Of a stretch of 64,000 nucleotides of DNA, positions 2,879 through 56,274 are shown in pieces. The DNA is from Pyrenophora tritici-repentis. Taxonomy: Eukaryota > Ascomycota > Dothideomycetes > Pleosporales > Pleosporaceae. How positions within the stretch are numbered: position 1 is the stretch's first letter; the number at the start of each line of letters is the position of its first letter. Made by a program: the position numbers and the translations under genes. Location: positions 1,798,001-1,862,000 of the forward strand of contig NC_089394.1 in NCBI RefSeq assembly GCF_003171515.1, in the 5' to 3' direction. The notes under the pieces are model-generated. The model was not told the origin of the DNA. It was given only the letters and a program-made list of their open reading frames with translations, and made no database searches.

Positions 2879-2883
2879 GATTG

Positions 2884-2946
2884 TGTTAGAAAGGTATCTA
2901 TACCAATCAACGCAGTGGCAAAGAGTGTTCACTTTTTGTCTCAACA
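2884..2946 (+). repeat. Left 63-bp LTR of the miniature element
   Basis: Perfect copy of 3182-3244. The identity extends two bases outward (TG) on the left and one base (G) on the right by coincidence with flanking sequence. Ends TGTTAG...CAACA. Confidence 0.85.
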
Positions 2947-2960
2947 GGTTATGAGCCCGG
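2947..2960 (+). other. Primer-binding site (half tRNA-iMet type)
   Basis: GGTTATGAGCCCGG begins at the base after the left LTR. Its complement contains GGGCTCATAACC, the anticodon stem and loop of initiator tRNA-Met. A primer cleaved in the anticodon loop is known from Drosophila copia and several fungal Copia elements. Confidence 0.65.
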
Positions 2961-3029
2961 GGCCGCTTTCAGCGCATCAGCAGGTTCGTGATGGACTGCT
3001 TGTTGGGTGAGTGACCACAGCCGATTTGC

Positions 3030-3134
3030 CAGAGCAAGAGGGCCAGCGCCAAGCAGGGCCAGCGCCAGAGCTAGAGCAAGAGGGCCAGAGCAAGAGGGCC
3101 AGCGCCGAGTAGGGCCAGCGCCAGAGCCAGAGTC
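3030..3134 (+). repeat. GC-rich minisatellite inside the miniature element
   Basis: Imperfect tandem units built from GAGCAAGAGGGCCAGCGCC and AGGGCCAGCGCCAGAGC, about two long periods. It makes up nearly half of the element's interior. Confidence 0.8.
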
Positions 3135-3181
3135 GCAAACCGCTCGCATTACTTTGTCCCCCTGCCTTGATTGCGGGGGTG

Positions 3182-3244
3182 TGTTAGAAAGGTATCTATA
3201 CCAATCAACGCAGTGGCAAAGAGTGTTCACTTTTTGTCTCAACA
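3182..3244 (+). repeat. Right 63-bp LTR of the miniature element
   Basis: Perfect copy of 2884-2946, preceded by a G-rich polypurine-like tract and followed by the GATTG target duplication. Confidence 0.85.
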
Positions 3245-3299
3245 GATTGTATAATTCCAACAGAGCTTCTTGTCAGTGCTGATAGCACGGCAGATCCGG

Positions 3300-52791: not shown

Positions 52792-55700
52792 CTACATAAT
52801 GAGGCCTTCCAGTTGCTCTTGCACCTCCTTGAGCTCAATCTCTCTGAGCGGGGCTTCTTCGCGCTCGACGAGTCCCAGTTGATCAAGGAACCTGGCCCAT
52901 TTATTGGCTGGCAGTGGCTTTGTGAACCCGTCTGCGATCATGTTGTCAGACGGCACATACTCTACCTTGATCACCTTTCGGGTAACCTCCTGTCGTAGCC
53001 AGTGATTGTGTATGTCAACGTGCCGAAGCTTTGTTTGCAATTTGGCAACGTCTTCATTTACTAGACGGATCGTCTGAGTATTGTCGCACTTGATTGTGAT
53101 AATTGGATTGCTTAGCTTTACCTGAAGCTCTTTTAACAACCGCGACGTTAAGATTGCCTCCTTAGCAACTTGTGATAGGGCAAGCAGCTCTGCTTCTGTT
53201 GTTGATGTTGTCACAGTATCTTGCTTGCTTGCTCTCCAGGCGATGAGTCCTCCGAACAGCTTGATTGCGTATCCCTGCGAGCTTTTCCTGTCCAGTGTGT
53301 TGTCTGCAAACGACGCGTCACTTGCTACCTCGAGGCCATCGCCTCTACCGAGTTCGAGGGCTAGGGATTCTGTTTTCTTGAGATACAGGAGCACACGGTC
53401 TGCAGCGTCTTGGTGTTCTGTACTTGGATTGATTAGGAAGCGAGCAAGTCGTGATGTTGCAAAGGCTATGTCGGGTCTTGTTGTGACTGCAGCGAATAGA
53501 AGCGATCCAATCTTGCGTTGGTACTTGTTGACTTCAGCTGGTGCTGCGAGTCCTTCTCGTGGTCGGAGTTCGATGCCTGACATTGGCGTATCATGCCTTA
53601 CATTTTGGTGGTTGATGAGTTGACTGATTTTGTCGACGTATGCAGCTTGAGATAGCTGTATGGTCTTCTGCTTGCGATTGCGCATAACCTCTACACCGAG
53701 AAACCACTGTAAGTTGTCTCCTCCCGTACAAGCGTATTTTTCTTGGATCCAGTTGATGGCCTTCATGGCCTCTGATTCTTGCTTTGAACGGTACGCAACG
53801 ATGATGTCGTCCACATAGAAGAAGATGATAACTCCGTCTTTGATCATGCAGCATGGCTCCTGTGGTATTTGTTGAAACCCTATCGAAGCAAGAGTTGCGG
53901 TGAATTCTTTCTGCCACAGTAATGGTGAGATCCGGAGCCCGTAGAGTGCCTTTTGCACTTTGAGTAGAGTGCCAGGCTTCTGATATCCTTTTGGCATCCT
54001 CATGTATATTTCTCTGTCGATTGCAGCATGCACAAAAGCATTAGTGACGTCGTATTGTTTCAGCTCAAGATCGTATTTGGCGGCGATTGCCATAAGCATT
54101 CTGAATGAGCGTCCTGCCAATGTTGCTGCGTATGTGTCTTGGGAGGTGATGTTGCGTTGTTGGTCTCCCCTTACTACCAATCTTGCCTTGCATTTGATGA
54201 GGCGGTGATGCTTGTCGAGTTTGTAGGTGTATACCCACATACAGTCTAGGATCTGGTGCCCTGCTCGTTTGACTGGTGATGCTTGGACCTCAGTCCATGA
54301 CTTCATTTGTTGGTGACTCCGAAGGTGTGTCTTTTCTGCTTCCTTGAACATTTCGTATAGTGGATGGTCTTCCAGCTTTGAGTATGCTGTTGGGAGTGGC
54401 GGTAGCTGGTTACGATGGGGCTTGATTCCCTTGGATAGTAGTCTCTTCACCTGAGCCTTGTCGATTGACTTTCCTTCGTGTTGACCAATGTGTCCTGATT
54501 CGGTGCCGGCCATGAATGCGGCTGCCCATGGACTGGTCATTGATGTTGATTGGTTGGACATGTTCGTCATATCCTCGTTGTTCACCTCTCCTTGAACTAG
54601 CAAGGCCACAGGTGGAGGAGTTGGTGGCGGGGTTAGATATGCCTCTACCACCTTCCTTCCTTGGTGGTATCTGGTTTTCTGAGTGCGCGGGCTCTCTTCC
54701 TGCGTCGTATCGTCCTCGTAGAACGTCTCGGTTTCTGCTTGTTGGCTCTGAGTACCTGGGAGTTCGACTGTTCTCACCCACGTTGCGATTTCCTCTAGGG
54801 TGTTGTGCATGAGATTGTCCATCAGGTCCTCAGTCTTGCCATTGAAGATTGTTTCTTCGTCAAACACTACGTCGCGAGTGCTGATTACCTTTGCCATAGA
54901 TGGGATCCATATGCGGTAAATGTTCGTCGACTGGTATCCCACTAGGTATCCAATCCAGGCCTTCGGATCTAGTCTCTGTAGCCTGGACTTTCCTCTGTGG
55001 GTGTCGTCTGTCATTGCGAAAGCCTTACACCCATATGCTTTTAGGTGAGCTTGATTTGGTTTTCGAGGTCCGGTGACTATGCCGTTCATGGCAGCTGCGT
55101 GTGTATAGAATATTTCGTATGGTGTCTTCCAATTGTTTGGGTAATTTGGCGTTCGATTGTATAGGTATACCGCCGCTCTGGTAGTTTCTGGCCAGAGTTC
55201 CCATGGAAGGTTTGCATCCAGTCGAATTGCGCGTGCCTTTTCTTTTATAACACCCCCTGAGCGCTCAGCTCCTCCGTTTTGAGCTTGAGTATCTAGAGCG
55301 GAGGGCTCGAGTTTGATTGATAGGGACGTGCACCATTTTTCGACCTCTTGTTTGACGGTAACGATCTCGTTGTCAGTCTCGATGACTTTGACTGTGATGT
55401 TGAATTGTTTCTTCATGAACTGGACGAAGAGGCCTAGGAGGCGAATGATTGAGCGAGCCGGTCTGTTGTCCTTGAAGTAGAAGTCCCATGTGTATCGGGA
55501 CCGTCGGCAAGTGATCAGCATTTGGCTCTTCTCCTTGGTGAAACTGCCGTCCTCATACTCATGGAAGTCGATGGCTACCCTTTCACCTGGCCCTTCGTCG
55601 TTCAGTCTAGGCGTCCTGCGTATTTGTCGTTTCGATTTTGACCTGCCGCAGGCGTCACACTCCACGGTGGTGATGCCCTTGATCCTCACCCCCTCAGATT

Positions 55701-56274
55701 GCTGCACGAGGTGCTCGATCGCGGATGGCCCGGGATGTCCGAGTCGTTTGTGCCATAGTATGGCAGTAGCCTTTTGTGGTGATCGTTTGGCTCGATTCAT
55801 ACGCACATGAAAGGCTGAAGTTGATGTAGTAGGTGGCTCGATAACCCATTGCCCATAGTGTTCCGATAAGGTGGCAATGGTTGAACCATCCCATCGCCGT
55901 AGGCTTGTCGGGTCTCCTCGATTGTCCCACCATATACCTTGTCTTCGGAGCAGCCTGAATGATACGAGGCTGCAGAGGAAGTCTGGGCACCAGGCAACAT
56001 TGCTTAGGTGTAGAATTTGTTTGCCCTGAGCCCCCTCTGCCGTCACCTTGACTGCTCCGTATCCTTGTATCCAAACCCTTGAGTTGCCAGCCCAAATGTA
56101 ATCTCCCATCGCAGGCGGGCGTACGTCTTCGAGCCTTGAGAGGTTGTTGCAGATGTGCGTCGTCGAGCCAGAATCCAGGATGAATGCATCCTTTAATGGG
56201 TATCCTTGATTGCTCGCATTGAATGCCGCTTTCATCATGCCCTCGTCCAGCCTCGAGATCTCGCGTCCATCTAG
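52792..56274 (-). CDS. Copia Pol: protease, integrase, reverse transcriptase, RNase H
   Basis: Frame open from directly after the gag UGA, with about 1160 codons; first internal ATG at 56238. Protease with ILDSGSTTHI; integrase with the HHCC zinc finger (HKRLGHPGPSAIEHL, CDACGRSK) and catalytic core (VAIDFHEYEDG, VIETDNE, NGGAERSGG); reverse transcriptase with GLRISPLLWQKEF and the catalytic FFYVDDIIV; RNase H with VASDASFAD and STTEAELLALS. All catalytic residues I can check are present. Produced presumably as a Gag-Pol fusion by readthrough, since the first ATG after the stop would cut only 12 residues and no separate promoter is seen. Confidence 0.93.
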   Translation of the reverse strand, partial: LDGREISRLDEGMMKAAFNASNQGYPLKDAFILDSGSTTHICNNLSRLEDVRPPAMGDYIWAGNSRVWIQGYGAVKVTAEGAQGKQILHLSNVAWCPDFLCSLVSFRLLRRQGIWWDNRGDPTSLRRWDGSTIATLSEHYGQWVIEPPTTSTSAFHVRMNRAKRSPQKATAILWHKRLGHPGPSAIEHLVQQSEGVRIKGITTVECDACGRSKSKRQIRRTPRLNDEGPGERVAIDFHEYEDGSFTKEKSQMLITCRRSRYTWDFYFKDNRPARSIIRLLGLFVQFMKKQFNITVKVIETDNEIVTVKQEVEKWCTSLSIKLEPSALDTQAQNGGAERSGGVIKEKARAIRLDANLPWELWPETTRAAVYLYNRTPNYPNNWKTPYEIFYTHAAAMNGIVTGPRKPNQAHLKAYGCKAFAMTDDTHRGKSRLQRLDPKAWIGYLVGYQSTNIYRIWIPSMAKVISTRDVVFDEETIFNGKTEDLMDNLMHNTLEEIATWVRTVELPGTQSQQAETETFYEDDTTQEESPRTQKTRYHQGRKVVEAYLTPPPTPPPVALLVQGEVNNEDMTNMSNQSTSMTSPWAAAFMAGTESGHIGQHEGKSIDKAQVKRLLSKGIKPHRNQLPPLPTAYSKLEDHPLYEMFKEAEKTHLRSHQQMKSWTEVQASPVKRAGHQILDCMWVYTYKLDKHHRLIKCKARLVVRGDQQRNITSQDTYAATLAGRSFRMLMAIAAKYDLELKQYDVTNAFVHAAIDREIYMRMPKGYQKPGTLLKVQKALYGLRISPLLWQKEFTATLASIGFQQIPQEPCCMIKDGVIIFFYVDDIIVAYRSKQESEAMKAINWIQEKYACTGGDNLQWFLGVEVMRNRKQKTIQLSQAAYVDKISQLINHQNVRHDTPMSGIELRPREGLAAPAEVNKYQRKIGSLLFAAVTTRPDIAFATSRLARFLINPSTEHQDAADRVLLYLKKTESLALELGRGDGLEVASDASFADNTLDRKSSQGYAIKLFGGLIAWRASKQDTVTTSTTEAELLALSQVAKEAILTSRLLKELQVKLSNPIITIKCDNTQTIRLVNEDVAKLQTKLRHVDIHNHWLRQEVTRKVIKVEYVPSDNMIADGFTKPLPANKWARFLDQLGLVEREEAPLREIELKEVQEQLEGLIM

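Follow-up and report, generated by a model that had tools for sequence, protein, structure and literature searches.

Near the left end of the window – the 64,000-nt stretch of DNA that was analysed, positions 1798001-1862000 of contig 5 in Pyrenophora tritici-repentis M4 – lies a miniature LTR retrotransposon of the TRIM type, 361 bp in length (2884-3244), which was located in the genome by a search with the whole element. Its parts are as follows.

2879..2883, no strand: left copy of the target-site duplication GATTG (read from the sequence and by flank comparison)
2884..2946, + strand: 5' LTR, 63 bp, TGTTAG...CAACA (read from the sequence and by genome search)
2947..2960, + strand: primer-binding site (PBS) GGTTATGAGCCCGG, 14 nt, complementary to the anticodon arm of tRNA-Met(CAT)
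2947..3181, + strand: internal region, 235 bp, with no convincing coding frame
3028..3132, + strand: internal direct repeat of 49-bp units (3028-3076 and 3084-3132), 94% alike
3173..3181, + strand: putative polypurine tract GCGGGGG (3173-3179) followed by TG, assigned from position and composition
3182..3244, + strand: 3' LTR, 63 bp, same sequence as the 5' LTR (alignment)
3245..3249, no strand: right copy of the target-site duplication GATTG (read from the sequence and by flank comparison)

A sequence-only reading of this DNA had claimed identical LTRs with TGTTAG...CAACA ends, a GATTG on either side and a purine tract, and each of these is borne out: none of the 63 positions differs between the two LTRs, the GATTG copies are read at both borders, and the tract stands ahead of the right LTR. 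The claim that the element codes for nothing also holds. There is no ATG-started frame of at least 20 aa overlapping the window copy, and the longest frames with GTG or TTG starts (91 and 103 aa) both extend past the element ends; at one copy of a sister element (L049) the longest overlapping frame has 85 aa, mostly beyond the element, with at most 36-44 aa inside. Both elements have the form of TRIMs, reportedly described by Witte in 2001: direct LTRs with TG...CA ends (63 bp, TGTT...AACA), a PBS adjoining the 5' LTR, a polypurine tract adjoining the 3' LTR, and a length (361 and 323 bp) below about 1 kb. The predicted RNA fold of the whole TRIM is not unusual (z -1.09; 15 of 100 shuffles are equally good), Rfam at gathering cut-offs and ARAGORN returned no match and no tRNA in the window, and the TRIM LTR pattern has no match in viral_contigs. 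Two side observations concern the same stretch: TRIM LTRs (window 2893-2904 and others) carry an inverted repeat, GGTA-N4-TACC, whose arms are kept in most copies while the centre varies, and another Copia element, with a polyprotein frame of 1148 aa and an RVT_2 match, lies at 52792-56238.

Searches of the genome with the whole element, its LTR and the sister element gave at least 37 LTR matches at no fewer than 24 loci. These comprise five full copies of the window type (TRIM-A), seven full copies of the sister type (TRIM-B), three TRIM-Copia hybrids and nine single LTRs, to which all 37 LTR matches are assigned (10, 14, 4 and 9, respectively). The five copies of TRIM-A (361 bp) show no differences from one another; those of TRIM-B (323 bp) differ by 0-6 substitutions. 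Reading of all 24 loci revealed flanking direct repeats at every full copy (12 of 12), at all three hybrids and at eight of the nine single LTRs, the exception being an old LTR at C1:9800426. The repeats of the full copies are exactly 5 bp in 11 of the 12 cases (in the twelfth, which falls within a TA repeat, an apparent 7 bp leaves the length ambiguous) and each is different: GATTG, CAATG, GTTTA, AATAT, TTTCT, ATGCA, TATAC, GAGCT, GTTGT, GATCT, TATAT (the ambiguous case) and ATTTT. Comparison of the 400-bp flanks of TRIM-A with the sequences examined showed no flank common to two TRIM-A copies (the left flank of L042 has short matches to other repeats), and the copies thus look like independent insertions. 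Scattered copies with their own 5-bp duplications, predicted if the element had been retrotransposed, are present in both families, and the contrary possibility – that the repeat pair occurs only at this locus – is excluded within this one genome.

An empty site was found for one TRIM-B copy. This copy (C1:6801612-6801934) lies, with GTTGT on both sides, in a duplicated segment, and the paralogous segment on contig 9 (L058 1-1237; 99.2% identical to the C1 segment over 1237 bp) has a single GTTGT, then 11 further matching bases and no element, the right-hand match being short. No paralogous empty site was found for the window copy, the 300-bp left flank of which matches only itself in the genome. 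TRIM structure and retrotransposition are upheld by the duplications, the identical LTRs, the scattered copies and this one paralogous empty site (for TRIM-B).

The primer site proposed by the sequence-only reading, a half-tRNA-Met site, finds its counterpart in the genome: the 14 nt are complemented in three tRNA-Met(CAT) genes. A search with GGGCTCATAACCC gave five genome matches, three within tRNA-Met(CAT) genes called by ARAGORN and two outside; the reversed-pattern control gave two. By general tRNA rules, we take the three genes to be probable initiator tRNAs. The pattern of LTR end plus PBS, AAYAGGTTATGAGCNC, has 111 matches in the genome compared to none for its reversed control, and at the sites examined (among the matches listed) the leaders belong to several Copia types.

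One abundant Copia family, Copia-235, has a 235-bp LTR and 125 candidate LTRs, of which the best 40 are all 100% identical (the LTR copy in L067 shows 99.6% identity). TRIM-less copies also bear 5-bp duplications (ATTTG, AATTC, CAAGT and GTAGT, at 4 of 4 examined, one of them internally deleted). A plain TRIM-less copy at C4:547179-552567 is 5389 bp long, and between it and TRIM-A (361 nt) there is just one exact match of at least 11 nt: the 18-nt AACAGGTTATGAGCCCGG, which sits at the LTR/PBS border and consists of AACA (2943-2946) plus the 14-nt PBS. The two elements also share TGTT...AACA ends. The genome thus does contain an autonomous Copia with the same ends and primer site, as anticipated from the TRIM sequence. 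The LTR of this Copia, at 235 bp, has no other exact stretch of at least 11 nt in common with the TRIM LTR, however. Given the five identical TRIM-A copies and the 40 identical LTRs (best of 125), both TRIM-A and Copia-235 look to have been recently active. The first interpretation – a retrotransposed TRIM with a tRNA-Met primer site and a Copia partner – is supported. A relative of Copia-235, with an LTR of about 226 bp (Copia-226), is represented solely by an interrupted coding region in one of the hybrids (hybrid B, below) and by stretches of LTR plus leader. Some Copia LTRs (L074, L075, L077 and L078) end in AATA, not AACA, with the same start of the primer site.

Three loci combine TRIM and Copia sequence, each with its own 5-bp duplication; in this one isolate they make up 3 of the 15 TRIM-LTR loci other than single LTRs. 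With LTR63 and LTR235 denoting the 63-bp TRIM LTR and the 235-bp Copia LTR, their organization is as follows.

Hybrid A, C5:2475123-2480810, duplication CATAC: LTR235 - PBS - TRIM-A interior - LTR63 - PBS - gag-pol - LTR235
Hybrid B, C3:1183852-1192494, duplication ATATT: LTR63 - PBS - gag-pol - 226-bp Copia LTR - PBS - TRIM-B interior - LTR63
Hybrid C, C1:2645417-2645898, duplication GCTTT: 222-bp Copia LTR - PBS - TRIM-B interior - LTR63

The TRIM part of hybrid A (298 bp) is identical to TRIM-A and is exactly the part absent from the TRIM-less Copia-235 on C4; the reading frame of the hybrid has gag, integrase and RVT_2 Pfam matches in Copia order (rve and gag_pre-integrs fall below curated cut-offs). 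In hybrid B the two LTR63s are identical and the TRIM part shows no substitution against copy L047 over the 256 bases compared, while the TRIM part of hybrid C has 4-6 substitutions against TRIM-B copies. Hybrids A and B are circular permutations of a single two-element order. The gag-pol region of hybrid B is split by a 3124-bp insert (L050 3027-6150; C3:1186027-1189150) bearing CA...TG ends and direct repeats of 8 bp, CTTGCGAG, presumably a hAT element. A fourth candidate, L060 (the old LTR at C1:9800426), was rejected: it consists of a lone, old TRIM LTR and a 226-type Copia LTR (L060 1508-1790, duplication CAAAT) that inserted separately, at most 3 bp from the end of the former. Hybrids between Copias, sought with one pattern as an LTR235-type end on a Copia-226 leader, gave no matches.

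When the five hybrid junctions were lined up with the plain elements, four fell in the shared LTR-end/PBS stretch and the fifth there or 2-5 nt upstream. Each of the two junctions of hybrid A has a shared stretch of 18 nt; hybrid C and the first junction of hybrid B have one of 11 nt, made up of the LTR's last A followed by GGTTATGAGC. The Copia LTR at the second junction of hybrid B ends in CAACA compared to CAATA in L074 and L075, and the switch may have taken place 2-5 nt upstream of the PBS, or the difference may be a mutation. Copia complexes free of TRIM sequence are also present. At C18:12536-28232 (L080-L083) three Copia-235 units with four LTRs are enclosed by one CGTAG duplication, and at C6:189792-200396 (L078, L079 and L084) two units of a Copia relative with a 237-bp LTR, having three identical LTRs, are enclosed by one AGTTA duplication. 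With a single duplication each, these show that multi-unit Copia insertions can enter this genome as single events; both can also be explained by other kinds of template switching.

Reverse transcription normally involves a plus-strand strong-stop DNA, made up of the LTR and a copy of the PBS templated by the tRNA; this pairs with the PBS complement in which the minus strand ends. We think it probable, on the evidence of sequence, that TRIM uses the proteins of Ty1/Copia elements (Copia-235 in the case of TRIM-A, Copia-226 in that of TRIM-B) and that the hybrids arose through plus-strand jumps at the PBS. The observed structures, junctions, duplications, common PBS and identical copies on both sides are the ground on which we infer co-packaging and jumping. 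If TRIM and Copia RNAs were enclosed in one particle, then the plus-strand strong-stop DNA of one element could anneal to the PBS complement on the minus strand of the other. A single jump would yield an element whose left LTR comes from the donor and whose right LTR is that of the acceptor, with the join at the PBS; this is the arrangement of hybrid C. Were the growing strand to copy the right LTR of the acceptor, together with the attached tRNA, and then to jump again, two successive jumps would give hybrid A or hybrid B, depending on the starting element; that two are called for in these hybrids is more demanding than one, and counts against the mechanism. A plus-strand jump at the PBS would make R homology of the minus strands unnecessary. 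Since the LTRs of TRIM-A and Copia-235 show no R homology (AACA plus PBS is all that this pair shares at 11 nt or more), the R-R minus-strand switch of Sabot and Schulman (2007; PMC1950507) does not fit, whereas the PBS does. Intermolecular plus-strand transfer has been proposed for HIV-1 proviruses with unequal LTRs (PMC9278108). Weighing against the proposal, the second transfer is reported to be generally intramolecular in HIV-1 single-cycle work (PMC5651808), although the same paper argues for intermolecular events.

Any homology-driven event would need the same stretch, and junction position alone is thus no proof of strand transfer. The main rival is DNA recombination at the same short homology after integration: one-LTR circles would integrate into a resident element where LTR and PBS meet, with a TRIM circle entering a Copia in hybrid A, a Copia circle entering a TRIM in hybrid B, and gene conversion of the left LTR of a TRIM in hybrid C. 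The junction positions fit this equally well, A and B have exactly the form that insertion of a one-unit circle leaves, and the outer duplications would be kept. Yet for homologous recombination the homology is short (18 nt in A; in C and at B's first junction, 11 nt), hybrid C requires another exchange, in the 9 nt with which the LTR starts (TGTTGAGAA), and the two multi-unit Copia insertions demonstrate entry as a unit for complexes of their kind, if not for these hybrids; we regard recombination as unlikely, albeit a serious contender. It is less likely still that a different Copia family with the same PBS mobilizes TRIM, which would then have become fused to Copia-235 and Copia-226 only incidentally. 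The 111 sites of LTR end plus PBS (none in the control), spread over several Copia types, mean that several families share the site, but in each of the three hybrids the partner is Copia-235 or the related Copia-226, and identical Copia-235 copies match identical TRIM-A copies in apparent age.

The hybrids might also be ancestral, TRIM having been born from a B-type autonomous element by deletion between two LTR-end/PBS repeats. Removal of the segment of hybrid B between its two PBS copies would indeed leave TRIM-B, and an internal deletion has been deduced for rice OsajLTRA10/OsajRetroS10 (Gao et al. 2016, PMC4717578). Against this, hybrid B holds a complete 226-bp Copia LTR following a Copia polypurine tract and so is already two elements; TRIM-A and TRIM-B are each hybridized with a different Copia; and hybrid A, bounded by Copia LTRs and with a single LTR63, gives no TRIM by one such deletion. 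We consider this origin distinctly improbable. That chance repeats or misassembly account for the observations is hardly credible: while the hybrids are read from the assembly alone, flanking duplications mark 23 of the 24 loci, and one copy has a paralogous empty site.

A further question is whether each TRIM has kept to one Copia. Between TRIM-A and TRIM-B (one copy of each) 37 of 319 aligned sites differ, with most gaps within the internal direct repeat at 3028..3132. In hybrids A and B, the two aligned parts of gag-pol show differences at 72 of 200 and 90 of 231 fourfold sites; for the large LTRs the figure is 100 of 224 sites. Provided that TRIM sequence is not strongly constrained, the TRIMs have diverged less than the Copias to which they are fused and would have split after them. 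This suggests that TRIMs changed helper, a lead from one pair compared.

TRIM helpers are rarely known: related large elements are recorded for 11 of 289 plant TRIM subfamilies (Gao et al., PMC4717578). Hybrids flanked by duplications are physical evidence that TRIM and a given Copia met during replication, and they suggest that a common primer site plus LTR tips suffice for contact. Tentatively, and with somewhat less confidence than we place in the mechanism itself, we propose a general picture in which a TRIM and a Copia with unrelated LTRs are tied only by an 18-nt LTR-end/PBS stretch, plus strands hop in mixed particles to give both elements with two unlike LTRs and circularly permuted composites, and TRIMs may change helper. 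If true, a composite bounded by TRIM LTRs and containing gag-pol would look like the "autonomous parent" of the TRIM, and published parents, rice OsajLTRA10 among them, may descend from TRIMs instead of being their ancestors. The hybrids offer a second origin for such elements.

Among known systems, plant TRIMs (Gao et al. 2016; PMC4717578) resemble the present elements in size, two LTRs, PBS, polypurine tract, lack of coding and 5-bp duplications. The sequence-only reading had held LTRs this short to be unusual; a precedent stands in the same text, where a 233-bp plant TRIM has 52-bp LTRs. The large elements related to 11 of Gao's subfamilies have LTRs 79-98% identical to those of the TRIM, whereas the LTRs of TRIM-A and Copia-235 share only the LTR-end/PBS stretch at 11 nt or more. 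Nor are TRIMs as little described in fungi as had been supposed, fungal examples having been published (PMC10886601, PMC7014611 and PMC4646964). Among these, the Helenus TRIMs (311-1263 bp; PMC10886601) are likewise Copia-linked, with 5-bp duplications and anticodon-loop PBSs including tRNA-iMet. Membership in Helenus, marked by a tRNA-like LTR, was rejected: no tRNA was found by Rfam at E up to 10 (one TRIM-A copy) or by ARAGORN (three loci). For P. tritici-repentis itself, 20 Copia families are given by Donnart et al. 2017 (PMC5445492); the words "TRIM" and "miniature" occur in neither that paper nor the pangenome paper PMC9594970, and once each in PMC3538342, where the one names a kit and the other helps to define MITE. 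Neither this element nor any TRIM-Copia hybrid joined at the PBS was found described in the open-licence PMC papers searched.

SMART elements (FRetro129, with proposed helper FRetro64; PMC3281118) are likewise tiny, copia-mobilized and accompanied by solo LTRs. There the two elements share PBS and polypurine tract while their LTRs share only an 11-bp motif; FRetro64 shares 96% of the internal region, whereas here the interior shares nothing of at least 11 nt except the PBS, and here hybrids provide the physical evidence of contact. The complexes of Sabot and Schulman (2007; PMC1950507) have three LTRs and one outer duplication, as do hybrids A and B and the Copia dimer on C6; the trimer on C18 has four LTRs. 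Hybrids A and B have the internal LTR, two cores, like outer LTRs and single duplication of template-switching complexes, while hybrid C differs in having two different outer LTRs. A further difference is that highly similar elements are there joined through R, and here unrelated LTRs are joined at the PBS. The HIV-1 proviruses with asymmetric LTRs (PMC9278108) involve one virus and deletions of one LTR, compared to two element families here.

A further likeness is to rice OsajLTRA10, a large copia with TRIM-like LTRs and interior, a 25-bp duplication at the TRIM breakpoint (near TRIM position 130, with a 115-bp LTR), and the published status of the TRIM's parent; in the literature searched it appears only in PMC4717578. 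The arrangement of the duplicated 25-mer resembles that of hybrid B, and the rice element may itself be a hybrid of this kind. We take its end, TGGTATCAGAGCC, to be a tRNA-Met primer site following an LTR end. LTR swapping in soybean, reportedly described by Du et al. in 2010, is another close case. Set beside these systems, what is new here is the partner Copia together with the PBS-joined hybrids, which suggest which element moves TRIM and how the two are copied together.
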